From contig JAMOPG010000136.1 in NCBI GenBank assembly GCA_027064715.1, positions 1-41,748 of the forward strand: DNA of 41,748 bases, written 5' to 3'. This document shows, one piece after another, positions 23,379-36,274 of this stretch. The DNA is from Desulfobacterales bacterium. GTDB lineage: Bacteria > Desulfobacterota > Desulfovibrionia > Desulfovibrionales > Desulfothermaceae. A program made the position numbers and the translations under genes. The notes below the pieces were generated by a model. The model did not search any database, was not told the DNA's origin, and worked only from the letters and a program-made list of their open reading frames with translations. Position 1 is the stretch's first letter. Every line of letters begins with the position of its first letter.

Positions 23379-23999
23379 TTATAGGGTTTTAGCTATTTCA
23401 ATTAGTTTATAAATCGTCATGCCTGAGAGCCAAGCTACATCTTCTGGTGATAAGATAGAAGATATGGATACGTCAAACAAAATATTTCCAGAGGGATCAA
23501 ACTCATCATCTCCTTCCCAGAGTATGAGTCTGATTGGCACAAATGGAAAGACATAATACTCAAAACCAACATCACCTTCCTCTATTTCCAGAGCACCTAA
23601 TACCCCACATGCCCTTTTAAAAAGATCTAGATTTTTCCCAAAAACATTTACCATTGGAGTTATAACCCTGGCACTAAAGGGTCCAAAATAAAAGGTTGCT
23701 CCTGGTATTTCTCTATAAGATATCCACTTGTCATAAACAGAAAGAGGTTTTTTACCTTGTAGATAGTGTAAGATTAATACCTGTTCTGTTAATGGAACCT
23801 CTTGTTTAGGATTGTCTTTGTTTTTAAATTCAAAATATGGATACGTTACATGATATTTACTTCCCAAAAAAGAAATCTCCATTCTATTTTCAGAAACTTT
23901 CTTAAATCCACTTCTATTTACAATATATTTGAATGTTTCATTCTTCAGTTCTTCAATGGCCTTGGCCTTGGCCATTCTATAATCATCTATCCTTGGCAT
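23379..23999 (-). CDS. DUF3786-type protein
   Basis: A 206-residue soluble protein of unknown function that I recognise as resembling DUF3786. It shows [57 protein letters not shown] and a C-terminal [20 protein letters not shown] start it at the ATG at 23999, preceded by AAGGAT; the open frame reaches 24110, but that part is rich in hydrophobic and Cys residues and crosses the untranslated stretch after the acsE terminator. This family is often found close to corrinoid and acetyl-CoA pathway genes in anaerobes, as here after acsE. No catalytic residues can be named. Confidence 0.75.
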
Positions 24000-24083
24000 A
24001 AAACTGATCCTTAAAATAAGGAGTAATATGGTTTCAAAAATGTGGGGATACCATATTATAAATGCGCAAAGAAATCCAGTATT

Positions 24084-24123
24084 AAAAATGCAAAAACCCT
24101 GGGAAGACAAAAATGACCCAAGG
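24084..24123 (-). terminator. Rho-independent terminator after acsE
   Basis: Read on the minus strand, CCTTGGG (24123-24117) pairs with CCCAGGG (24103-24097), a 7-bp stem with one G-U pair around a 13-nt loop. It is followed by TTTTTGCATTTTT. It lies about 30 nt after the acsE stop and marks the end of the acs operon, with DUF3786-icd beyond it. Confidence 0.7.
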
Positions 24124-24151: not shown

Positions 24152-25048
24152 TTACAATTCTAACCAGGAATCAGAATATAAGGTCTTACCTAACAACACA
24201 TTAGTAGTCTTTACATAATCTTGTAATTCTTTTGGCAGGCTATTTAGATCAGGCTGATTACCTTCCATTGTCTGATAAATTACATCAACTATATCCTGGC
24301 GCTGGCCTTTAGCAATAGCATTCAATGTATCATCTTTTGGATCAGTGATAATGGACTGCATTCCATATTTCATTAACATTACTCCATATGTTCGGTTGAG
24401 TATTGGACGAAGGTGGCGAGGGACTCCATTGGATACATTGGAAAGACCACACGTAGATCTAACACCTGGAAACATCTCTATCAGCTCACCATACAACATC
24501 TCATAGAACTTGAGAAGTATTACTGCTTGATCTTGTTGCACATTAACAGGGGTTACAACTCCATCCACCCATATCTTTTCATTAGGAATACCAGCTGAAT
24601 TTGCTGCTGTTAAAAGTTCAACACAAAGGGCTATCCTTTCATGCTCATCCCTTGGAAGACCTTCAGGTCCCCACATGAGGGCCACAAAATCTGCATTATA
24701 TTCAACAGCCAGAGGCAACATCTTTTCATATCTCTCAGGTCTGCACGCAATAGAATTTATTATTGGAGGTTTGTCACATACTTTAAGACCAGCTTTAATT
24801 GCATCTATATTCGTTGTGTCTAGAAGCAAGGGCAGGTCCACAACTTCTTGAACAGTCTCAATCACCCACTGCATAAGATCTGGACCATCTTTTTTGGCTG
24901 GTCCAATATTTAGATCAATATAATCCATGCCTTTTTCTTTTTGAAAAAGCGCCTCCTCCTGAATGGGCTTTTTGTCCCTTTCTTTAAAGGCCCTGTTTAT
25001 TCTCTTTACCATTACATTTAAACTTTCTCCAAAAAGCAACATTGTCAT
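24152..25048 (-). CDS. acsE: Methyltetrahydrofolate:corrinoid/iron-sulfur protein methyltransferase
   Basis: A 298-residue pterin-binding enzyme that moves the methyl group from methyl-H4folate to the cobalt of the corrinoid protein AcsCD. The TIM-barrel motifs are visible: DYIDLNIGPAKKDGPDLMQW, LPLLLDTTNIDAI, INSIACRPERYE, ADFVALMWGPEGLP, IWVDGVVTPVN and RSTCGLSNVSNGVP. It is about 35 residues longer than the Moorella enzyme, mainly at the C-terminus (QTMEGNQPDL onward). GGGAG lies 6 nt before the ATG. It is the last gene of the acs operon, 65 nt after acsC, and a hairpin terminator follows. Confidence 0.95.
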   Translation of the reverse strand: MTMLLFGESLNVMVKRINRAFKERDKKPIQEEALFQKEKGMDYIDLNIGPAKKDGPDLMQWVIETVQEVVDLPLLLDTTNIDAIKAGLKVCDKPPIINSIACRPERYEKMLPLAVEYNADFVALMWGPEGLPRDEHERIALCVELLTAANSAGIPNEKIWVDGVVTPVNVQQDQAVILLKFYEMLYGELIEMFPGVRSTCGLSNVSNGVPRHLRPILNRTYGVMLMKYGMQSIITDPKDDTLNAIAKGQRQDIVDVIYQTMEGNQPDLNSLPKELQDYVKTTNVLLGKTLYSDSWLEL

Positions 25049-25113
25049 AATTTTCTCCCTTTTTGGTTTGTTAATTACCTACAATCCATTTAATAAAAAA
25101 TACAATTCCAATT

Positions 25114-26457
25114 CTATTTTCTTGCCCTTAAAAAGGCAGGTAAGTGAGCAGCTTCTCTTGGTCCAACAATTATTTTCCAATCTGGCAGCTCTTCTTCTAA
25201 TTCACCAACTATTGCTGCAGCATATCCAGGGATAATGAGCTCTTTATGTTTTATCTTATCAGCTATCCCACACCTTTTTACAAAGAGCCCCACATCATCT
25301 CCAGAAAACTTTCCAGCAGCCCATGCTGTAAGCACAGACAACCCTTCTGTATCCTTAATAAGCAGCCAGGTAGGTACTTTTGAAGCCTCTATTTCCCCAG
25401 ATACTATAAAATATGTAAGTGCAAAGTTGGCTGTAACAATTACTGGAGAATTCTCATCAGGCTTACCTATCTCGTAAATTCCTTCACTTACTGTCATTGG
25501 CCTTTGGGGATCAGTAAAAATATTCAGTCTTTCAATCAATAATGGGAATAGAGATTCTGGTTGAAAATCTGATAAAACCACTATTCCACCATATTTTGCA
25601 ATAAAAGTAGCAGCTAGCAATGTTTCTACATCCAAATTGGAGGCCATCTCGCAGGGGAATAGAATTGTTGGATATCCCACTGCCCTATTTTTCTGCCTTA
25701 CTGCCGCACGTCTGATTGCCACCTGATCTATAAATGCCTGTTTTGGTTCCCTTGAACCAGGATCAATCACTATATTTTTCAGTCCCATTTCTGCAAGTTT
25801 TTCTGTAAGAGGAATGAGTTTTTCCACTGATTCTGCCTTTACAGCTATTGGAAGATCGTTGTCCTTTGCCAACTTTCCAAAATCATCAATATTTGCTTCT
25901 GTGGCTGCATAAATCAAAGGATTTTTAAACTTTGTCACTTTAATAGCAGCTTCCATTACATCTTTGTTTTCAGACATAAGTATTAAATTAAATTCTGATA
26001 GCTCTGCGATTAGCTTGGCCTTGGCAGCAAATTCATCTCTGTTTCTATTTACGTCTTTTAAGGCAATCAATTCTGGACGCAGATTAAGGCCTACCCTCTC
26101 ATATTGAAAGGCATTCCAAACCCTTAATTTATTTTTAAGCTCATCCTCTCCAATATCAGAATTTACCAGGGCTGCAATTGCAGTTGGTCCTACAAATGTC
26201 TTTTCATGCCTATATTCTACTGTTTCACCACCAATCTTTACTGCCCTTACCCCTTTACCAATCATTACTGGACGTACTGGAGGTGCTGATGCTTCAGCCA
26301 ATTTTTTTCTAGCCTCATCAGACACATATGGACACTGATCCAATTCAGCCTTACCAGCTGCCAGATTCATAGCAAAGGCAAGACATGTAGGATATCCACA
26401 TTCCTTACAGTTTGTTCCCGGAAGCAATTTAAATATTTGAATTCCCGTTAGACCCAT
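25114..26457 (-). CDS. acsC: Corrinoid/iron-sulfur protein large subunit
   Basis: A 447-residue subunit that carries the [4Fe-4S] cluster used to reduce cobalt in the corrinoid methyl carrier. The N-terminal motif is Cys17-x2-Cys20-x4-Cys25-x16-Cys42 (NCKECGYPTCLAFAM...DQCPY), the normal spacing. A TIM-barrel region follows (YERVGLNLRPELIALKDVNR, KNPLIYAATEANIDDF, NIVIDPGSREPKQAF) and a C-terminal cobalamin-binding part (VLTAWAAGKFSGDDV, IIPGYAAAIVGELEEELPDW). Length is the family norm. AGGAG lies 6 nt before the ATG. It pairs with AcsD. Confidence 0.96.
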   Translation of the reverse strand: MGLTGIQIFKLLPGTNCKECGYPTCLAFAMNLAAGKAELDQCPYVSDEARKKLAEASAPPVRPVMIGKGVRAVKIGGETVEYRHEKTFVGPTAIAALVNSDIGEDELKNKLRVWNAFQYERVGLNLRPELIALKDVNRNRDEFAAKAKLIAELSEFNLILMSENKDVMEAAIKVTKFKNPLIYAATEANIDDFGKLAKDNDLPIAVKAESVEKLIPLTEKLAEMGLKNIVIDPGSREPKQAFIDQVAIRRAAVRQKNRAVGYPTILFPCEMASNLDVETLLAATFIAKYGGIVVLSDFQPESLFPLLIERLNIFTDPQRPMTVSEGIYEIGKPDENSPVIVTANFALTYFIVSGEIEASKVPTWLLIKDTEGLSVLTAWAAGKFSGDDVGLFVKRCGIADKIKHKELIIPGYAAAIVGELEEELPDWKIIVGPREAAHLPAFLRARK

Positions 26458-26540
26458 TTTACTCTCCTATAAAAGCACGATTCTACCCTTTTATTTTTTT
26501 CAGTCTATAATTTTAAAAGACTAGTTGGTATTCTTTCAAC

Positions 26541-28781
26541 CTATTTACCAGCAACCATTGGCTCAAGCTCTAAAGCTGGATGTTTCTTTTCCTTTAAAAA
26601 TAGAAGAATCTCTTCCTCTGTTACACCAACCGTCTCATCTGCAATTCTATCAATTAGATCAGGAATGCCCAATTCTTCTCCTCTTTTAATAAGCCTTTCC
26701 CTTAATTCTTCCTTTAACATCTTTGGCATCCATACAAGTCTCAAGAGACCGCCGTCTGGCCTATGTTTTGGACCCTCTGCACGTAAGAACTTCCTCTGAG
26801 TAATATTGAACTTAGAATGACCTAAAAAACCTGGGGTCTGAGTTCCACCACCTATTGTGCCTGCAAGTGTGGTAAATGTCATACCACATGGGGTTGGCCC
26901 CTGATACTCCCTGTTTACTGTCATCACTCCATTACACCGTGGCAACACTGCAGCAATACACTCACAACAACCACATGTAGTCATTGGTCTGTCTAATATT
27001 GAATAAAAGGTATAACTGGAAACACCACCTTTGGATGCCTTGTGTACAAATTCATTTACACCTTTCCACTCACCTTTCCATGGATCTAAACATTCACCTT
27101 TTTCAATTGGCTGATTTGGACCATTTGGATTGATTTCATAAGATGCCTTACAATCCATCCAATTATAAGCTCCGCAAAGACCTGTTCTCTCTGGAGATAT
27201 TGTACATACATGGTTAGGTGCAAAAGATTGACAAAGTGTACAGGAATAGAAGATTTCCACGTCCTCGTCCCTCATGTTCTCAACACGCTCATCACGATAT
27301 TTGTAAACTGCCCTTGCTTTAGCAGTTAATTCATCTACGTCTTTCTCATTTGTATATAAGGTAACTTGGACCTTGTTTAAGATCTTACCAAAATCTTGAT
27401 GAAATTTTGCGTGAAGCACCACACCTATATGTTTTAAAGTAAATCCCTTTTCAACTGCTGCCTTTGATACCCTTATCCAGCAGATATCCCTTTGTCCTAT
27501 ATGCATTACACCCTGTATATAATTTACAAGATGGTGGATCTGTCTTTCTAAGATTGGCTCAAAGTCTTCCTGAAATTCCCTACCAGCAACCAGAACCAAA
27601 ATTCCAAGTGGAATTACATCCCCCTCTTTGAGATCAGGAATATCTTTTCCAATAACTTCTACTTTACCATCTTCAATCTCATTCATATTAGCCATTTTTA
27701 CAAGCTCTGTACACTGGGTCTTACCACCACCCATCTGACAGAACATATCACCTTTTCTTACCCTCTCACCTTCATATGCAGGACCAAATGCACATGGGAT
27801 ATCAATCTTTGTTACCTGAACCTTAAGGCCTCTTACCTCAATGGACTTCTGGACAATTTGATCATAAGCAACATTGGCTACAATGTGCTCATAAGTACAC
27901 ACACCATATGGGCATATCTCAGGTATATCTGTATCAGCTATTGTTGGAAATCCCCAGTTAATTGCTCCACCTGCTGCTGCTGCCCATTCTGCATTTACAT
28001 CTCCAAGGGCATTAATAAATGCAAACACACGGTTTTTATTATAAAGCAAGACCCTCTTATACTGGCCAGGCTCTATGCCACCAAATGCCATGGCTATCCT
28101 ATTGGCAAAACCAAGGGCAAAAACTGCTGCAGAGATCTCTGGTCCAAATGGGACAATCCGTGTGTTCCATCCAATTTGAACACCAGCCTGAAGTAGCTGT
28201 TCTGCTACTGTGGTCCCATTTTGATTTGCAGCCAAAAAGATATAAAGGTTCTTTTGCTGATAATCTTCAACAATCATCTTAGCGAGTTCTGGAGTTGGAG
28301 CAGCACCAACTATAACTGCAAAACCAGGTGCAGAACCGTCAACAAACTCAACACTCCTTTTCCTGAAGATAATATCATCCGCTGCACCTAGCCATATCTT
28401 CCCATTTTCCTCATCAATTTCCTCTGAATGCAAATAAAAATCTGGTTTTTCTAAATAAGTTAAAGCCTCATCTATCTCACACGCAAATATTGCAGCCATA
28501 CCTGCATCCAGTAGTGGACCTAGGTAAGGAAGATGATGATATGCTTTTACATGTGGAGGCAAAAGCTGCCTTGCATATTCTAAAGGCCTTTTCATATCTT
28601 CTAAGGTTTCTACCTTATGACCTGTTAATGAATATATAACAGGAAGATAATAAGCAGTATTTGGAAAACCAACCTTTGTGGAAGCAGGATAGGTTTCCAA
28701 TATCCTTTTATATCTTCCCTCAACCTTTGATACTATATTATATGCCCCCTGTATTACAGCAAAGGCTATTAATTTGGACAT
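26541..28781 (-). CDS. acsB: Acetyl-CoA synthase catalytic subunit (bacterial type)
   Basis: A 746-residue enzyme joining the corrinoid methyl group, CO and CoA into acetyl-CoA. The A-cluster ligands are all present: Cys514-x2-Cys517-x8-Cys526-x9-Cys536 binds the [4Fe-4S] part, and Cys603-Gly-Cys605 (TTCGCCECI) with Cys517 holds the two nickels, matching Moorella spacing. The N-terminal ~300 residues are present, so this is the long bacterial form able to bind a CO dehydrogenase partner, unlike the short archaeal CdhC. AGGAG lies 6 nt before the ATG. No acsA/cooS lies beside it; the CODH partner must be encoded elsewhere. Confidence 0.97.
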   Translation of the reverse strand: MSKLIAFAVIQGAYNIVSKVEGRYKRILETYPASTKVGFPNTAYYLPVIYSLTGHKVETLEDMKRPLEYARQLLPPHVKAYHHLPYLGPLLDAGMAAIFACEIDEALTYLEKPDFYLHSEEIDEENGKIWLGAADDIIFRKRSVEFVDGSAPGFAVIVGAAPTPELAKMIVEDYQQKNLYIFLAANQNGTTVAEQLLQAGVQIGWNTRIVPFGPEISAAVFALGFANRIAMAFGGIEPGQYKRVLLYNKNRVFAFINALGDVNAEWAAAAGGAINWGFPTIADTDIPEICPYGVCTYEHIVANVAYDQIVQKSIEVRGLKVQVTKIDIPCAFGPAYEGERVRKGDMFCQMGGGKTQCTELVKMANMNEIEDGKVEVIGKDIPDLKEGDVIPLGILVLVAGREFQEDFEPILERQIHHLVNYIQGVMHIGQRDICWIRVSKAAVEKGFTLKHIGVVLHAKFHQDFGKILNKVQVTLYTNEKDVDELTAKARAVYKYRDERVENMRDEDVEIFYSCTLCQSFAPNHVCTISPERTGLCGAYNWMDCKASYEINPNGPNQPIEKGECLDPWKGEWKGVNEFVHKASKGGVSSYTFYSILDRPMTTCGCCECIAAVLPRCNGVMTVNREYQGPTPCGMTFTTLAGTIGGGTQTPGFLGHSKFNITQRKFLRAEGPKHRPDGGLLRLVWMPKMLKEELRERLIKRGEELGIPDLIDRIADETVGVTEEEILLFLKEKKHPALELEPMVAGK

Positions 28782-28811
28782 GTTTTACTCCTAGGAAAAA
28801 TTTCTCTTAAC

Positions 28812-30365
28812 CTACCTTTTTTTATGGATTAAGTTAAGCTTATAGAGCTGCCTTTCAATACCTTCAGATGGAACGTCTGGATATGCGCTACCACCTTCTT
28901 TAAGAGGATATTTTTTCCTCAGTGTTTCAACCTTTTTCTTTACCTCTTCAATATCCGTTTGAATCTTTTTCTTAAGTTCTTCTTTATGCTTTGCTTCTTC
29001 TTTTGGCTTTTCTTCAGCTAGTTTTTTGGCCTTATCCTCTTGTCCAGACTCTTTTTCTTTCTTTACAATCTCAAGCTCTTCCAATACAGCCTTAACACCT
29101 TCTTTTATCATTGCTGCCAATTTTGCCTCATCAATTGCAACTCCAGCTACTTTAGCATCTTCAGGTGCTTCCCCTACCTTCTCTTCCTTCTTCTTTTCAA
29201 CCTTTTCTTCCTTCTTATCTTCTACCTTTGGGCCTTTTTTCTTTAGATCTACCTTTTTCTCTTCTTTTGAAGCAGCAGCTTTTGTTTTTTCCTCTTTCTT
29301 TGGTGCAACTTTTTTTTCTTGTTCTTCAATCTTGAGATCTGGCTCTGGGGAATAGGCAGTGTAATCAACATTTACCTCGAGCAGTAGCTTCTTAATTGGA
29401 GCAACATCCTGTGCCGTGCCACCATCTATCATAAAATCTATATAAGATTTAACCAGTCTTATTGCCTCTGGATGTCTCATAATTAAAAGAGATGAACCAG
29501 CTAGTAGATATGCCACTGCTGCCACAGCCTCCATTAGGATTCCTCTTTTCTCAGGATCCCCTAAAAGTGGAGCTGTATCAACACTATCTTTCGCTTCCTT
29601 ACACTTCCATACCTCAAATGAAAGATTATTTATTATAGGATTCTGCAATTTATTATCACCAAATGTCATGGCAGCAAGCATAATCCTTTCCATGACTGAG
29701 TAAGTATATTCCAGACCATAACCCAAGCCACCAGTTGTTGGATCAATCACTACCCTGTCAAGGGGTAAGCCCAAATTTTCCAACAAGATATTGATCTGTT
29801 TGGCAAGATTAATATCAATTGGAGAAGATGCAATAGCTGTGTGCCCAAATCCCATTACACCAGCACCAATCTGTTTGTGATTGGCATCTTCAATTGGACC
29901 TATTGCCAGATTCTTTCCTTCGCACTCTTCAGCGATCTTTTTTAAAACTTCAGCATCCTTTTCCACATTTGCACAGCCCCATACAATTACTGGAACATCA
30001 ACTGCGTCAAGCACCTTTTTCACAGTGGCTACTGCTTCCTCTGCAGATGCATTTTTCCCGTTAGGATCAATTGAACAAAGTTGTAAGGCAATTGCTTCTG
30101 CGCCATATTCTTCCACACACTTTTTTGCCCATTTTGCAGGATCATTTAAACAATCTTTAAATGGTTCCTTTGCTGCATCAGGCCAGTCTGGGGGCTCCAT
30201 ATCCCAAACTTCCATTGCTATCTTAGGCTTATTTGGAATCTCTCCCTCAAAGGTGCAAAAGGGCAGACATGTCTGTCCCCCAAGTTTTAAGGCCTTATCA
30301 CCAGTACCAATTGTGACTTCTTTAATATATCCAGAATATTTTTCTTTAATGATCTCAAAGCCCAT
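28812..30365 (-). CDS. acsD: Corrinoid/iron-sulfur protein small subunit with long charged C-terminal extension
   Basis: A 517-residue protein; I prefer the ATG at 30365, with AAGGAG 5 nt upstream, over the GTG at 30371. Residues 1 to about 335 are the TIM-barrel small subunit that binds the corrinoid with AcsC (VDVPVIVWGCANVEKDAEVL, GPIEDANHKQIGAGVMGFGH, VVIDPTTGGLGYGLEY, LLAGSSLLIMRHPEAI). Residues ~342-400 are nearly all Lys, Glu and Ala. They are followed by a predicted helix (405-435), a Lys/Glu-rich probable coiled coil (440-485) and a non-charged tail. The family norm is near 320 residues, so this extension may tether the subunit to the complex. Confidence 0.93.
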   Translation of the reverse strand: MGFEIIKEKYSGYIKEVTIGTGDKALKLGGQTCLPFCTFEGEIPNKPKIAMEVWDMEPPDWPDAAKEPFKDCLNDPAKWAKKCVEEYGAEAIALQLCSIDPNGKNASAEEAVATVKKVLDAVDVPVIVWGCANVEKDAEVLKKIAEECEGKNLAIGPIEDANHKQIGAGVMGFGHTAIASSPIDINLAKQINILLENLGLPLDRVVIDPTTGGLGYGLEYTYSVMERIMLAAMTFGDNKLQNPIINNLSFEVWKCKEAKDSVDTAPLLGDPEKRGILMEAVAAVAYLLAGSSLLIMRHPEAIRLVKSYIDFMIDGGTAQDVAPIKKLLLEVNVDYTAYSPEPDLKIEEQEKKVAPKKEEKTKAAASKEEKKVDLKKKGPKVEDKKEEKVEKKKEEKVGEAPEDAKVAGVAIDEAKLAAMIKEGVKAVLEELEIVKKEKESGQEDKAKKLAEEKPKEEAKHKEELKKKIQTDIEEVKKKVETLRKKYPLKEGGSAYPDVPSEGIERQLYKLNLIHKKR

Positions 30366-30388
30366 ACCCACTCCTTAAATAACATTTT

Positions 30389-32353
30389 TCATCTTTGACC
30401 TTTTCTTATTTGTTCAATAATCCGTCTATTTTCTTTTATTCTCTGGCTCACCTTGGGGAATAGATTCATATCAGTATGAGGCAAAAATAATGAGGCAACA
30501 TAATTCTCCATATAAGATGGTGTCTCTGACAATTCAAAGTTAGTCATCTTTTTCACCACCTCAACCACATCTCTTCTGATTTGATTGTTCAAAGAACTCA
30601 TCTTTGCACCAAGCAAAGATCCATTTCCCAGATAACTAATCTTGCTGGTATCCATCTCAGGGAGAAGCCCAATGGTTATTGCCTTTTCTAAGTCAATGTA
30701 GCTTCCAAACCCTCCAGCAATAATGATCCTATCAAGATCATTTATTGTTAATCCAACTTCTTTAAGCAGGGTCATGCATCCACTATAAATTGCTCCCTTA
30801 GCCCTGATCAAATTGTCTATATCAGGCTCCTGCAAGGTAATATCCCTCTCTATTCCACTTTCTTCTGCCCATACCAAAACATATTCCCATACTCCATCTT
30901 GTTCTCTAATCCTGGGAGTATTTAGGTCTCTATTAAATTTTCCTCTATTATCAATCACCCCCACTTCAAAAAGTGTTGCCACAATCGTAATCAAACCTGA
31001 GCCACAAATCCCAATGGGCCTTGAATTACCAATGGTGAAGACCATGGGCTCAAACGTTATTGGATCAATGGAAAAATCCTCAATTGCTCCTTTCTCTGCC
31101 CTTACACCAAATTTTATTCCACCACCCTCAAAAGCAGGCCCAGCAGAGCAGGCTGCACATACCATCCAATCTTTATTCCCAATAACAATCTCTGCATTTG
31201 TCCCTATGTCCACATAGAGTGTAAGCTCATCTTCTTTATAAACCAAAGAACCCATTATACCAGCAACTATATCTCCGCCTACATAACTGGAAACAGAAGG
31301 TAAGAAAAGAGCCACTGTGTGTTCACCAAGATCAATCCCTAACATCTTGGCATTTAAAGGTGGATATAGGTTACAAGTAGGAACATAAGGGGACCGTCTT
31401 ATATATCTGGGATCTAATTTTAAAAAAAGATGTGTCATTGTGGTATTGCCAGCTAATGTAATTGTGGATACCTCATCCTTAGAGACACCAGATTCTTTTA
31501 ATATCTTCCCTATGACTTTATTTGTAGTGTTCAGTACTGCTTGATTTAGTTCCTTTAATCCATTTCCCTTTTCTGCGTAAACGATTCTATTTATAACATC
31601 TTCTCCATAGCTCATCTGTGCATTAAAATCTCCATATTCAGCCAAAACCTCTCCTGTGTTTAAATCTAACACCTGCCCATAAATAGTTGTTGTCCCAATA
31701 TCCATAGCTATTGCAAAATTTCTATTGCTAGTATCGCCAGGCTCTATATTTAATATCTTGGTCTTTCCATCTTCTCTTATTGATCTTTGTAAAGTAACAG
31801 TGACTTTAAAATCAGCTTCTCTTAGCACTTTTGAAATCTTCTTAATAACAGAAAAATCCACCTCAAGTCTATGTTCGTTGTATTTTAATTTTAGGAAATT
31901 TACTAACCTTGTGACATCAGCAGAATTGTCCTCATGGCTTGGTGGAGGTAATTCTAAATAACGCTTTTCCACTGGGGGCAAAAACACCCCCTTTTCTTTG
32001 AAATCTATTAGGTCCAGTTGCTTGATCTTGGCCCTTTTTCTAGGTGAGGCCTGGAGATTTAATACACTTTCATCAAGTTCAGATTCAACAGGGATCCTGA
32101 CAACAATATCTTCTGTCACCTCACTTATACACGCAAGGCGATATCCTTTATCTATATCCTCTTTTGATAACCTTTCACTTACACCCCCTTCAACTGCTCC
32201 CTGTTCTATTTTCACCCTGCACTTTCCACATACCCCATTACCTCCACAAGAGGCATTTATATGCACTCCAGCATTTAATGCTGCTCTGATCAAAGATGTC
32301 CCCTTCTCTACTTCTACCTCCCTGCCATGTGGAAGAAATTTTACCTTAGGCAT
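30389..32353 (-). CDS. RACo-type corrinoid-protein reductive activator with [2Fe-2S] domain
   Basis: A 654-residue protein resembling RACo, which uses ATP to return inactive Co(II) corrinoid protein to Co(I). The N-terminal plant-type ferredoxin has Cys36-x5-Cys42-x2-Cys45-x29-Cys75. A linker and middle domain follow. From about residue 210 there is an ASKHA ATPase-like domain (AIAMDIGTTTIYGQVLDL, VDIGTNAEIVIGN, CSAGPAFEGGG, GICGSGLITIVATLF, IAGGFGSYIDLEKAI). AAAGGAG lies 6 nt before the ATG. It overlaps the second RACo-like gene by 8 nt and sits 23 nt upstream of acsD, so it matches its substrate in the operon. Confidence 0.92.
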   Translation of the reverse strand: MPKVKFLPHGREVEVEKGTSLIRAALNAGVHINASCGGNGVCGKCRVKIEQGAVEGGVSERLSKEDIDKGYRLACISEVTEDIVVRIPVESELDESVLNLQASPRKRAKIKQLDLIDFKEKGVFLPPVEKRYLELPPPSHEDNSADVTRLVNFLKLKYNEHRLEVDFSVIKKISKVLREADFKVTVTLQRSIREDGKTKILNIEPGDTSNRNFAIAMDIGTTTIYGQVLDLNTGEVLAEYGDFNAQMSYGEDVINRIVYAEKGNGLKELNQAVLNTTNKVIGKILKESGVSKDEVSTITLAGNTTMTHLFLKLDPRYIRRSPYVPTCNLYPPLNAKMLGIDLGEHTVALFLPSVSSYVGGDIVAGIMGSLVYKEDELTLYVDIGTNAEIVIGNKDWMVCAACSAGPAFEGGGIKFGVRAEKGAIEDFSIDPITFEPMVFTIGNSRPIGICGSGLITIVATLFEVGVIDNRGKFNRDLNTPRIREQDGVWEYVLVWAEESGIERDITLQEPDIDNLIRAKGAIYSGCMTLLKEVGLTINDLDRIIIAGGFGSYIDLEKAITIGLLPEMDTSKISYLGNGSLLGAKMSSLNNQIRRDVVEVVKKMTNFELSETPSYMENYVASLFLPHTDMNLFPKVSQRIKENRRIIEQIRKGQR

Positions 32354-33917
32354 TTTGATCTCCTTTGGGGATTAATGTTTCATTTACCTTTACTGAGGGA
32401 AATTTTGTGAGATCAGTGTGGGGCAAAAATTTTGCTCCATTAAATCTATTCATAAATTCCTGATTAACATTTAGTTCTAAATAAGTTATCTTTTTTTCTA
32501 ATTCACAGATCTCTTCAAAGCATTTTGGTTCAAAAAGAAGCTTAATTGCCCCTTTTAAAGAGGTATTTCCCAGGGGAATAAATCTTTGTTTGGGCAGATC
32601 TGGAAGCATTCCAATGGTTATTGCAGATTCTGGATTTATGAAGCTTCCAAATGTTCCTCCAATAAAAAAATTGGAAATATCATTGAGTGTAATCCCCACT
32701 GTCTCAGCAATTGTCTCAATTATAGTATACATCGCAGCTTTTGATCTAATCAAACTGTCTATTTCTGGTTGAGATATAAGCAGATCTTGTTTTGTGCCTG
32801 AGTGATCCCTTTTTACTAATATAAGGCAAATTGTATCATCCTTTGTTGTGAATAAGTCTGGTGCCCTATCTGGAACAAATTTGCCCCTTATATCCAAAAA
32901 TCCATGTCTAAAAAGCTCTGCTGCAAGATCAATCATGCCTGAGCCACAAATCCCAACAGGAGGCAAGTTTTCAATGGTGGTATATAAAAATCTATTTTTT
33001 TCTGGATCATACTTTACTCTGTCAATTACTCCAGGACCAGCTTGTTTACCAATCTTGCTAACTCCACCTTCTAAAGCAGGACCTGCTGCGCCTGCGCATG
33101 CCACTAACCAGTGTTTATTTCCCAATATTACTTCTGCATTTGTGCCAACATCAACAAATATAGAAATCTCTTCTTTTTTGTGTATCTCACATTCTAAAAG
33201 ACCTGAAATCAAATCGCCACCCAAATAACTACCAATATTTGGAAAGAAAAACACTTTAGCACTTTTTGACACCTCAATTCCCAGGTCTCTGGCTGAAAAT
33301 AGATCCAATGTGTTTATAGGTGGGATGTATGGTTCTCTTATGATCCAGTTTGGAACTATCCCCAAAAATAGATGGGTCATTGCAGTGTTACCTGCAATTG
33401 CAATATTTACTATATCATCGAGATTTAGATTGTAAAGAGAACAGAGCTCCTTAAGATTCTTATTAAGATCATCAATAATCAATTTCTTTAATTCTTCTCT
33501 TCCAGAAGGTGTCTCTGCATAATGTATTCGCATTAATATATCTGGCCCAATCTTCACTTGAGGATTTGGATAATTGCCCTCACACAAGATCTTTTTTTGT
33601 TCTAAATCCAAAATAGAGATAACATATCTGGTTGTTCCTAAATCAACAGCAACTCCTAAAAAATTACTCTGCCTTTGACCTCTTAGTCCTGTCAAAAAAT
33701 AACCGCATCTATCTCTAAAAATGGAGGCCTTTATAGAAAAGTCATTCTTTCTCAAAATAGTAGGCAACTCTTTTAACAAAAAGATATCGCCCTCAACTCT
33801 TGCAATATTGGTCTGTTTTTTTAAGGCCTTTATTAATCTATCAAAATCACCACTATTATCTTTTAAAGAAGGTCTCAAAACTTCTAATTCTATACTCCAT
33901 GAGGTAAGCTCAGCCAT
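32346..33917 (-). CDS. RACo-like ASKHA protein lacking the [2Fe-2S] domain
   Basis: A 523-residue paralogue of the next gene. Residues ~1-80 resemble its middle domain (ELEVLRPSLKDN..., LPTILRKNDFSIKA against VLREADFKVTV), and the ASKHA ATPase-like part starts near residue 88 (VAVDLGTTRYVISILDL, GSYLGGDLISGLL, VDVGTNAEVILGN, CAGAAGPALEGG, GICGSGMIDLAAELF, IGGTFGSFINPESAI). The ferredoxin domain is absent and no Cys cluster replaces it. The start has GAGG 11 nt upstream. A same-operon partner with the cluster lies directly downstream, so a heterodimeric or regulatory form is possible. Confidence 0.88.
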   Translation of the reverse strand: MAELTSWSIELEVLRPSLKDNSGDFDRLIKALKKQTNIARVEGDIFLLKELPTILRKNDFSIKASIFRDRCGYFLTGLRGQRQSNFLGVAVDLGTTRYVISILDLEQKKILCEGNYPNPQVKIGPDILMRIHYAETPSGREELKKLIIDDLNKNLKELCSLYNLNLDDIVNIAIAGNTAMTHLFLGIVPNWIIREPYIPPINTLDLFSARDLGIEVSKSAKVFFFPNIGSYLGGDLISGLLECEIHKKEEISIFVDVGTNAEVILGNKHWLVACAGAAGPALEGGVSKIGKQAGPGVIDRVKYDPEKNRFLYTTIENLPPVGICGSGMIDLAAELFRHGFLDIRGKFVPDRAPDLFTTKDDTICLILVKRDHSGTKQDLLISQPEIDSLIRSKAAMYTIIETIAETVGITLNDISNFFIGGTFGSFINPESAITIGMLPDLPKQRFIPLGNTSLKGAIKLLFEPKCFEEICELEKKITYLELNVNQEFMNRFNGAKFLPHTDLTKFPSVKVNETLIPKGDQNA

Positions 33918-33961
33918 GTTATCTTGAACCTCTTTGAAATCTCTTTAATGCAATGCAAGTT

Positions 33962-34768
33962 TTATCTAGAACTCGCCATGATAGTTGGCCATCCACTTTC
34001 TTGTCCTATTATCTCTACAATACTTACACCGCGACCCTTTAATATATTTTCAATTTCAGGAACTTGATGTAAGAATAAGCCAGAAAAGATTAACCACCTG
34101 TATTTCTTTAGGTTAAATATATTCACGATAACGCTTATTACGTCAAAAACCATATTGGCAACCAAAACATCTGTATAAATTCCAAAAAAATCTTGTGCCC
34201 TTCCCCAAATGGGCAATATCTTTTCTTCTAATAAATTTAATTTGGCATTCTTTTTTGTAGCCTTTACAGCAAGGGGATTTAAATCCACAGAAAATATCTT
34301 ATTTGCTCCTTTTTTTGCACAAAACAAAGAAAGTATTCCAGTTCCACACCCTAAATCTAAAACACTATCTAAGTCTTTTTCTTTTTCATAGATATAGTCC
34401 AGTGCAACAAGACAATTGTATGTTGTGTTGTGTGTTCCTGAGCCAAAGACTACTGATGGATCTAATAAGATATCTTTGTCCCTGAGTTTTTTGGGTTTAT
34501 CCCATACAGGAATTATTCTTATATCTCCTATACCAAAGGTCTCAATCTTTCCACCAATCCAATCAAAATAATCCACCTCAAATATGTCTTTTAATTCAAG
34601 TCTGTTGTCAGAAGCAACAAGCTCATCCACTATATGATCGCTTTTTTTTTGAAAAAATAAAAAACTATCCCCTGCCTCATGCCAACATCCAATATAATCT
34701 TCAGAAATAATATCTTGTTTTAGTTTCCCTTTTAAATAATATATGTACAATTTATCTGGTATACACAT
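33962..34768 (-). CDS. PrmA-like SAM-dependent protein methyltransferase
   Basis: A 268-residue class I methyltransferase resembling ribosomal protein L11 methyltransferase. It has DPSVVFGSGTHNTTYNCL (PrmA: DPGxAFGTGTHxTT), the SAM motif VLDLGCGTGILSLFCAKKGA, SVDLNPLAVKATKKNAKLN and DVLVANMVFDVI. The N-terminal ~100 residues differ from the usual PrmA substrate-binding domain. Only 2 nt separate it from the upstream CooC-like gene and 44 nt from the next RACo-like gene, so it belongs to the acs operon. It may be the general L11 methyltransferase or may modify a protein of the acetyl-CoA synthase complex. Its substrate is not visible in the sequence. Confidence 0.78.
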   Translation of the reverse strand: MCIPDKLYIYYLKGKLKQDIISEDYIGCWHEAGDSFLFFQKKSDHIVDELVASDNRLELKDIFEVDYFDWIGGKIETFGIGDIRIIPVWDKPKKLRDKDILLDPSVVFGSGTHNTTYNCLVALDYIYEKEKDLDSVLDLGCGTGILSLFCAKKGANKIFSVDLNPLAVKATKKNAKLNLLEEKILPIWGRAQDFFGIYTDVLVANMVFDVISVIVNIFNLKKYRWLIFSGLFLHQVPEIENILKGRGVSIVEIIGQESGWPTIMASSR

Positions 34769-34770
34769 GA

Positions 34771-35517
34771 CTACACTATCCTTTTAAAAATTTCATATGC
34801 ACTCTTAACAGCTACAGAATCAGCAGGTAATTCAAAGGTTGGCTTGCCCATCATATCATATTGCTGGATCTTAGGATCTTTCATAACGCATCCCAAAAAT
34901 TCCAGTCCTGTATCATCAATATATTTTTTTACACCATCTGATAGTTCTCCTTCCACATTATTCAGTACAAGATATCCCCTACCTATTACCACATGTAGAG
35001 ATCTTGCAAGTTCATTGATCCTCTTTGCTGCCTGGAGCCCCCTTTTTGATATGTCTGATACTATGATCAGAGCATCAACGTCCTTGGTGGTGAGCCTGCT
35101 TATGTGCTCCATTCCTGCCTCATTGTCTATTACAATATAATCATAATTTCCTACTAACCTGGTCAAAAAATTGGTAAGCAAAGTATTTGCAGCACAATAA
35201 CATCCTGGACCTTCAGGCCTGCCCATAACTAGGAGGTCAAATTTATCTGTCTCTATTAAGGCCTCTTCTGATTTGGTGTCTATGAATCTGTCTTTTGTCA
35301 TACCAGGGGGAACTTCACCCTTTTTCATCTGTTCCCTAATCTCTCCTAAGGTAGTTTCCACTTCAAGCCCAAGCACCTCATTGAGGTTATAATTTGAGTC
35401 TGCATCCACTGCCAAGATTGGATATCTGTCGTTTTCCACCATATATCTTATAAGTAGCCCACACAAAGTAGTCTTGCCCACTCCACCTTTGCCTGAAAAG
35501 GCAATAGTAAATGCCAT
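34771..35517 (-). CDS. cooC: CooC-type nickel-insertion ATPase, first copy (CYC motif)
   Basis: A 248-residue P-loop protein of the MinD/CooC group. From the ATG at 35517 (AGGAG 9 nt upstream) it has the deviant Walker A FSGKGGVGKTTL, VDADSN, then CYC in PGCYCAANTLL, the Ni-binding CxC motif of CooC (about residues 106-108), DYIVIDNEAGMEHISR and VVSDISKRGLQAA. CooC dimers bind nickel and use ATP for maturation of CO dehydrogenase or, for the AcsF form, of acetyl-CoA synthase. It lies 13 nt after its paralogue. Which target each serves is not known from sequence. Confidence 0.9.
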   Translation of the reverse strand: MAFTIAFSGKGGVGKTTLCGLLIRYMVENDRYPILAVDADSNYNLNEVLGLEVETTLGEIREQMKKGEVPPGMTKDRFIDTKSEEALIETDKFDLLVMGRPEGPGCYCAANTLLTNFLTRLVGNYDYIVIDNEAGMEHISRLTTKDVDALIIVSDISKRGLQAAKRINELARSLHVVIGRGYLVLNNVEGELSDGVKKYIDDTGLEFLGCVMKDPKIQQYDMMGKPTFELPADSVAVKSAYEIFKRIV

Positions 35518-35530
35518 GGTCAAATTCTCC

Positions 35531-36274
35531 TTATTTTCTCATCTCTTTAATTATTTTTTCACAAATGTTATCTATTATATCTACTTCTGGAAGGTCCAAA
35601 ACACATGAAGATGATTTTTGACGCTCTGCTAAGGACTCAAGATAAGGGACCTTTGCAACCAGTTTTGGAAGGGGTATATCCTGTGGCAACTTAAAATCAT
35701 CGTCTGTCCTATTTAAAACCAACACCTGTTTTTTAAGACCCAACTCTTTTGCTAGCCTAGCTATGTTAGAAGCGATCTGAAGTCCTCTAATGCTTGGTTC
35801 ACTCACCACAACCAGACCATCAACACTGCTAACTGTGCCTCTTCCCAGATGTTCTACCCCAGCTTCTAAATCCACTATCATCCATTGAGAACTTCTCAAG
35901 ATCATATATGCCAAAAGGGCTTTTAAAATGGCATTTGCAGCACAGCCACACCCAGCACCAGCTCCAGCTATTGTACCCATTACCAAAAGTTTCATCCCTC
36001 TCACCTCTTTGGCAAGTTTCTGAGGCAGGTCCTCAACATGTGGATTTAGATTAATAAATACCCCACTGCCCACCCTCTCTTGAATCAACTTTTTATTGTT
36101 AACAAGTGGTGTGGGCACTTCATCTAAAGATAGCCCAAGCGCAGGACCTAAAGAAATAGCTGTGTCTGCGTCAATCATCCACACTTGCATACCCTTTCTA
36201 TTCAAATAATCTCCAAGCCATGCAGCTATTGTAGTCTTCCCTACACCTCCTTTTCCTGCTACAGCGATCTTCAT
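35531..36274 (-). CDS. cooC: CooC-type nickel-insertion ATPase, second copy (CGC motif), first gene of the acs operon
   Basis: A 247-residue paralogue of the next gene: Walker A VAGKGGVGKTTIA, DADTAISLGPALG, the CxC motif Cys109-Gly-Cys111 in GAGCGCAANAIL, and MIVDLEAGVEHLGRGT. The two copies are clearly divergent, which suggests one for CO dehydrogenase (CooC) and one for acetyl-CoA synthase (AcsF), but I cannot tell which. The ribosome site AAGGGGTGATGAG precedes the ATG. A good sigma-70-type promoter lies about 40-65 nt upstream, and this gene heads the operon that runs to acsE. Confidence 0.9.
   Translation of the reverse strand: MKIAVAGKGGVGKTTIAAWLGDYLNRKGMQVWMIDADTAISLGPALGLSLDEVPTPLVNNKKLIQERVGSGVFINLNPHVEDLPQKLAKEVRGMKLLVMGTIAGAGAGCGCAANAILKALLAYMILRSSQWMIVDLEAGVEHLGRGTVSSVDGLVVVSEPSIRGLQIASNIARLAKELGLKKQVLVLNRTDDDFKLPQDIPLPKLVAKVPYLESLAERQKSSSCVLDLPEVDIIDNICEKIIKEMRK

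Follow-up and report, generated by a model that had tools for sequence, protein, structure and literature searches.

RACo/AcsV of C. hydrogenoformans (PDB 3zyy, 4c1n), the reductive activator of the corrinoid iron-sulfur protein (CoFeSP), is the closest described system to the protein analyzed here. We use the name R2 for this protein, a cluster-free RACo paralogue encoded by the open reading frame 32346-33917(-) of a 41,748-nucleotide stretch from a Desulfobacterales bacterium (assembly GCA_027064715.1, contig JAMOPG010000136.1, positions 1 to 41,748), which as a whole we call the window. When RACo is complexed with CoFeSP, its Ser398 is a ligand of the Co(II)-cobalamin cobalt and stabilizes Co(II) (PMC4934906). 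The binding of RACo alone lowers the CoFeSP potential from -450 to below -600 mV (PMC6739815), a drop that fits the stabilization of Co(II) by this serine. Together with ATP, the O-demethylase activator shifts the corrinoid potential upward from -530 to -250 mV, also if an external chelate serves as the reductant (PMC6739815). The activators of 2-hydroxyacyl-CoA dehydratase and benzoyl-CoA reductase are homodimers or heterodimers whose two subunits share a single bridging [4Fe-4S] cluster (PMC6739815). The question at stake is whether ATP hydrolysis, in driving the uphill transfer of an electron to the cobalamin of CoFeSP, moves the electron, changes the cobalt ligand, or shifts the potential.

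The R2 protein and its family

The initial annotation of the window had described two overlapping ASKHA reading frames upstream of acsD, the downstream one with a complete [2Fe-2S] motif and the upstream one ATPase-like and devoid of an iron-sulfur domain. All of this is borne out, as both frames lie on the minus strand at the positions given there, with an 8-base overlap, the downstream protein (RACo) carries Cys36/42/45/75 within a Fer2 domain, and the upstream one (R2) has intact motifs and no Fer2. Window RACo is composed of Fer2, RACo_linker, Raco_middle, and RACo_C_ter, the last three above their Pfam cut-offs; R2 starts directly at the linker domain, and its three domains also exceed the cut-offs. 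The two proteins are 37% identical. R2 aligns over its full length to the solved RACo (3zyy/4c1n; E~1e-111, 38% identity in the structural match), and its AlphaFold model (mean pLDDT of 83) reaches a TM-score of 0.88 to 3zyy, which is far ahead of other folds among the matches listed, so R2 is not a chance open reading frame. A wrong start codon hiding the Fer2 domain was ruled out as well, since the upstream open frames were checked and no Cys motif was found in 112 R2 proteins. Against NCBIfam NF040756 (cut-off of 800 bits) R2 scores 463 bits, with the RACo of the window itself also falling below at 700 bits, and the RamA model TIGR04270 (cut-off of 500 bits) gives R2 only 104 bits, without an iron-sulfur domain.

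Judging from the sequences, R2 has lost the electron cargo (the [2Fe-2S] domain) and the cobalt ligand but not the ATPase motifs, because Fer2 and the serine are absent while the ASKHA motifs are conserved. The ligand position was not remarked on in the initial annotation: Ser398 of C. hydrogenoformans RACo corresponds to Ser403 in window RACo and to Ala277 in R2. Across the set of 112 R2 proteins, which were classed by overall similarity and not by the Ala motif, Gly-Ala occupies positions 397-398 in every one and a Fer2 motif appears in none, the same result that had been obtained with earlier classes defined by R2's own Ala motif. The cobalt-ligand serine is kept in all 25 RACo-clade proteins. 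Two Lachnospiraceae homologues (L192 and L193) score nearer to RACo, yet they have the motif and the length of R2. About half of the other DUF4445 activators, outside the RACo clade, also have Ala at this position, so that a protein with Ala there may still have a corrinoid client. As for the ASKHA motifs, the phosphate-1 Asp and Gly are conserved in 100% of R2 proteins, DxGTN, CGSG, and AGxFG in nearly 100%, and the phosphate-1 Thr residues in 77 to 84%; the linker/middle region is kept together with the ASKHA core.

In the maximum-likelihood tree of both activators, a check that the initial annotation had proposed, the R2 sequences form one clade (SH-aLRT of 100), sister to AcsV-type RACo. 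The remaining members of the family that encloses this clade have Fer2, and the tree is most simply read as an old duplication after which R2 lost that domain. The cluster-free form is neither confined to the window genome nor degraded at its ATP site, either of which would have spoken against the initial annotation, but is widespread with its motifs intact. A search of the phylum and a scan of the collection found it in 94 of the 395 sampled Thermodesulfobacteriota genomes, from many families, as well as in Nitrospirota, one anammox metagenome-assembled genome (MAG), and a few Lachnospiraceae. Reading frames are intact in nearly all carrier genomes, and identity between genera is 52% for R2 versus about 72% for RACo, so R2 is diverging faster. 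Searches of the open literature turned up no account of this paralogue, with subscription papers, including those on the RACo structures, lying outside these searches.

Link to CODH/ACS and proposed role

R2 is tied to carbon monoxide dehydrogenase/acetyl-CoA synthase (CODH/ACS). Within the phylum, AcsB is present in 89 of 94 genomes with R2 and in 140 of 301 without it (Fisher P=4e-19, a value that overstates independence because the sampled genomes are related), and both AcsB and RACo are present in those R2 genomes that were tested from other phyla (Nitrospirota, the anammox MAG, and Bilifractor). Among cultured bacteria, Desulfatibacillum alkenivorans DSM 16219 and Desulfoluna limicola ASN36 encode R2, RACo, and AcsB. 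As the protein is conserved in many bacteria, nearly always alongside CODH/ACS, R2 is by its sequence a real ATPase of this pathway, apparently undescribed, and not a broken copy.

AcsV-type RACo was detected in 41 of the 50 R2 genomes examined and was missing from nine, one of which (G225) is only 62% complete. Restricting the count to genomes at least 85% complete, RACo is absent from 8 of 49, namely, the four sampled genomes of a family that we designate f43, G214, G158, and G182, all of them with AcsB, and G230. The f43 genomes belong to three genera, are 95 to 97% complete, and contain acsD-CODH-acsB-acsC-acsE plus R2, with neither RACo nor a RACo-type Fer2 domain in any of the four; in G214 (99% complete), nothing matches Fer2. 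A stand-alone Fer2 ferredoxin that could replace the lost domain was sought in these genomes, and none is evident, Fer2 being found in f43 within frames of 229 to 909 amino acids and not at all in G214. The AcsC of the RACo-less R2 genomes that carry AcsB retains its [4Fe-4S] motif. The B12-binding_2 domain (PF02607) was detected in the relative G002 and in control genomes but not in the window genome, its congener G018, the four f43 genomes, or G214, which therefore appear to lack corrinoid proteins of the MtaC, MtbC, or MetH type. Because five RACo-less genomes keep CODH/ACS and R2 without PF02607 corrinoid proteins, the client of R2 is likely to be CoFeSP (or ACS).

The explanation toward which we lean, still tentatively, is that R2 is an ancient, dedicated RACo paralogue, a nonredox ASKHA ATPase that acts on CoFeSP (AcsCD). 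The family and its link to CODH/ACS are observed, and the following mechanism is our inference. R2 would dock on CoFeSP in the Co(II) state without ligating the cobalt and, by binding or hydrolyzing ATP, would bring about a conformational change and a rise in the Co(II)/Co(I) potential. Co(I) would then be restored by an electron of other origin, supplied either by the [4Fe-4S] cluster of CoFeSP itself, which CODH/ferredoxin would feed, or by RACo in genomes that have it. By analogy with the activator precedents, a protein without the serine and the cluster could perform only this ATP-driven shift of potential or conformation. In the family of the window, R2 and RACo would be made together from one operon, and in several lineages R2 may replace RACo altogether. 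That it is the sole CoFeSP activator in some of them, as an ASKHA ATPase free of both cluster and cobalt ligand, seems to us rather unlikely.

Several observations weigh against assigning R2 this role. With a presence threshold of E 1e-60 for RACo and R2 in the phylum survey, 15 AcsB genomes, mostly of the families f17, f45, and f74, have neither protein. Other activators must therefore exist, and R2 need not have taken the place of RACo where an R2 genome has lost it. Moreover, most CODH/ACS genomes that have RACo carry no R2, and, AcsB excepted, the gene neighbors of R2 vary by lineage. The CODH/ACS genomes of f17, f45, and f74 without RACo and R2 are G160, G188, G197, G223, G232, and G283, together with G305, G309, G333, G355, G394, and G486.

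Gene neighborhoods and alternative roles

The order cooC-prmA-R2-RACo-acsD recurs in eight genomes of the family of the window, where the R2 and RACo genes overlap or are closely spaced; in the window, the 3' end of R2 contains both the start codon of RACo and the AGGAG that serves as its ribosome-binding site. Five Desulfobacter/Desulfotignum-like loci have the reverse order, RACo-R2, with ATGA overlaps. As these translational couplings arose independently and in opposite gene orders, they argue for a shared process. They speak, as does R2's retention of the linker/middle region in front of the ASKHA core, for a heterodimeric activator into which electrons enter through one [2Fe-2S] cluster only, with R2 as the nonredox, nonligating subunit. 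The initial annotation had suggested such a pair, but it is not supported as a general function, since adjacency is confined to these two lineages and R2 lies apart from RACo elsewhere among the sampled genomes. R2 is also missing from most RACo genomes with CODH/ACS, and an obligate heterodimer is not supported because RACo is missing in f43, G214, G158, G182, and G230. We consider this alternative improbable overall, although the two proteins may pair in the tandem lineages.

Comparably doubtful is a role in the maturation of CODH/ACS or in cofactor exchange, by which R2, as an ATP-driven remodeler, would help CoFeSP take up or release its corrinoid, much as diol dehydratase reactivase handles damaged cobalamin, or would assist in nickel insertion with CooC. 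The loss of both redox features with the ATPase core kept would suit such a factor, and genes for a CooC-like ATPase (30 loci) and a PrmA-like methyltransferase (26 loci) lie no more than six genes away from R2. However, neither is found around R2 in f43, Thermodesulfobacteria-like, and other loci, the PrmA-like family occurs also in genomes without R2, and diol dehydratase reactivase is absent among the 50 fold matches listed for R2. A strict CooC-PrmA-R2 module was accordingly discarded as a general arrangement.

Less probable again is a split activator, with R2 receiving electrons from a dedicated partner such as a YkgJ-like protein (in f43) or an FMN reductase. A gene for a YkgJ-like CxxCxxCC protein with 10 to 15 Cys lies directly upstream of R2 in seven loci, among them those of the four RACo-less f43 genomes, and an FMN-reductase gene adjoins R2 in G032, from a second family of the order to which the window belongs. 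The candidate partners nevertheless differ among lineages, none of them being general, and the similarity to YkgJ does not reach the Pfam cut-off.

Other DUF4445 activators serve corrinoid proteins of methyltransferases, and Ala is common at their cobalt-ligand position, so a different client (of the MtaC, MtbC, or MetH type) could be imagined for R2. The action on another corrinoid protein contemplated in the initial annotation is nonetheless disfavored, and in our view very unlikely, as R2 co-occurs with AcsB and PF02607 is missing from the window genome, G018, and the five RACo-less R2 genomes of f43 and G214, though present in G002 and the controls. A decaying, functionless duplicate, to which the lost Fer2 domain and the faster divergence might point, is refuted by conservation and by the tree (deep monophyly, invariant motifs, mostly intact frames, several phyla), and we give it next to no credence.

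The features discussed are collected in Table 1. The 2.1-Mb MAG to which the window belongs has no RACo-type proteins besides R2 and RACo, and no Fer2 match was found in it apart from that of RACo. The CODH catalytic subunit was not identified among the acs-operon genes examined (24152-36274 of the window), in contrast to f43, where CODH sits between acsD and acsB.

Table 1. Coordinates of R2, RACo, and associated genes. Positions refer to the window unless preceded by a locus handle.
Feature	Position	Strand	Remarks
R2, cluster-free RACo paralogue, 523 aa	32346-33917	-	RACo_linker, Raco_middle, RACo_C_ter; no Fer2
Ala277 codon of R2	33087-33089	-	Position of the RACo cobalt-ligand serine; motif CAGAAGPALEGG
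RACo/AcsV, reductive activator of CoFeSP, 654 aa	30389-32353	-	N-terminal [2Fe-2S] domain
Fer2 [2Fe-2S] domain of RACo	32117-32332	-	Cys36, 42, 45, 75
Ser403 codon of RACo	31145-31147	-	Equals Ser398 of C. hydrogenoformans RACo, cobalt ligand
Overlap of R2 end and RACo start	32346-32353	-	8 bases; translational coupling
PrmA-like methyltransferase	33962-34768	-	Often, not obligatorily, a neighbor of R2
CooC-like P-loop ATPase	34771-35523	-	Copy accompanying PrmA-like gene and R2
Second CooC-like P-loop ATPase	35531-36274	-	
acsD, small CoFeSP subunit	28812-30371	-	Long charged C-terminal extension
acsB, acetyl-CoA synthase	26541-28781	-	
acsC, large CoFeSP subunit	25114-26457	-	N-terminal [4Fe-4S] motif intact
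acsE, methyltetrahydrofolate:CoFeSP methyltransferase	24152-25048	-	
DUF3786 gene	23379-24110	-	Adjoins the acs cluster
YkgJ-like genes (10-11 Cys)	L163:7573-8310, L164:7745-8458, L165:9713-10432, L166:4101-4856		Upstream of R2 in RACo-less genomes

Some further observations concern the same gene clusters. The AcsD of the window has a Lys/Glu-rich charged C-terminal extension of about 200 residues, which the f43 proteins lack and which shows no correlation with the presence of R2. DUF3786 genes adjoin the acs clusters of the window and of L039 (10957-12429), and one such gene is fused to the FeS domain that AcsC has at its N terminus. In G214, an acs operon is headed by a 1053-aa frame (L172:4806-7967) that combines a methylene-tetrahydrofolate reductase domain, a TPR repeat, and a CdhD/AcsD domain, an apparent MetF-AcsD fusion. 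In L042, from a 43%-complete MAG (G047), R2, RACo, the PrmA-like gene, and CooC keep their usual order but are broken into several frames, probably by sequencing errors. In many Desulfobacterales, R2 is the last gene of a separate run that codes for CooC-like, histone-deacetylase-like, CBS-domain, PrmA-like, metallo-beta-lactamase-like, and sirtuin proteins before R2 (L060:3988-11542; similar in L053, L063, L070, L078, L114, and L117), which suggests a protein-lysine (de)modification tied to CODH/ACS.

R2 among known activators

R2 can be regarded as a natural dissection of the question posed above, as the predicted ATPase is kept and the electron carrier and cobalt ligand are gone. It adds an apparently undescribed component to the CODH/ACS of sulfate reducers and their relatives, and the survey also reveals CODH/ACS lineages without RACo. 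If R2 were the sole activator in any of these, ATP-driven corrinoid activation would be fully separable from electron delivery, with the ATPase only gating or shifting the Co(II)/Co(I) potential and the CoFeSP [4Fe-4S] cluster or CODH/ferredoxin giving the electron.

By its sequence, R2 is homologous to RACo and fails two of the features that define it. It shares with RACo/AcsV the linker, middle, and ASKHA C-terminal domains, the ATP-site motifs and, in the family of the window, an operon with acsD, acsB, acsC, and acsE; it differs in having no [2Fe-2S] domain, in the serine always being Ala, preceded always by Gly, and in being usually encoded away from RACo. With RamA and the O-demethylase activators it has in common the ASKHA core and, as far as some members of the non-RACo DUF4445 group are concerned, Ala in place of the cobalt-ligand serine, but those proteins carry iron-sulfur domains and R2, which stands beside RACo in the tree, has none. 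Last, the activators of 2-hydroxyacyl-CoA dehydratase and benzoyl-CoA reductase show that an ATP-dependent activator can be a dimer with only one cluster, although their cluster bridges the subunits and R2 has no iron-sulfur domain.

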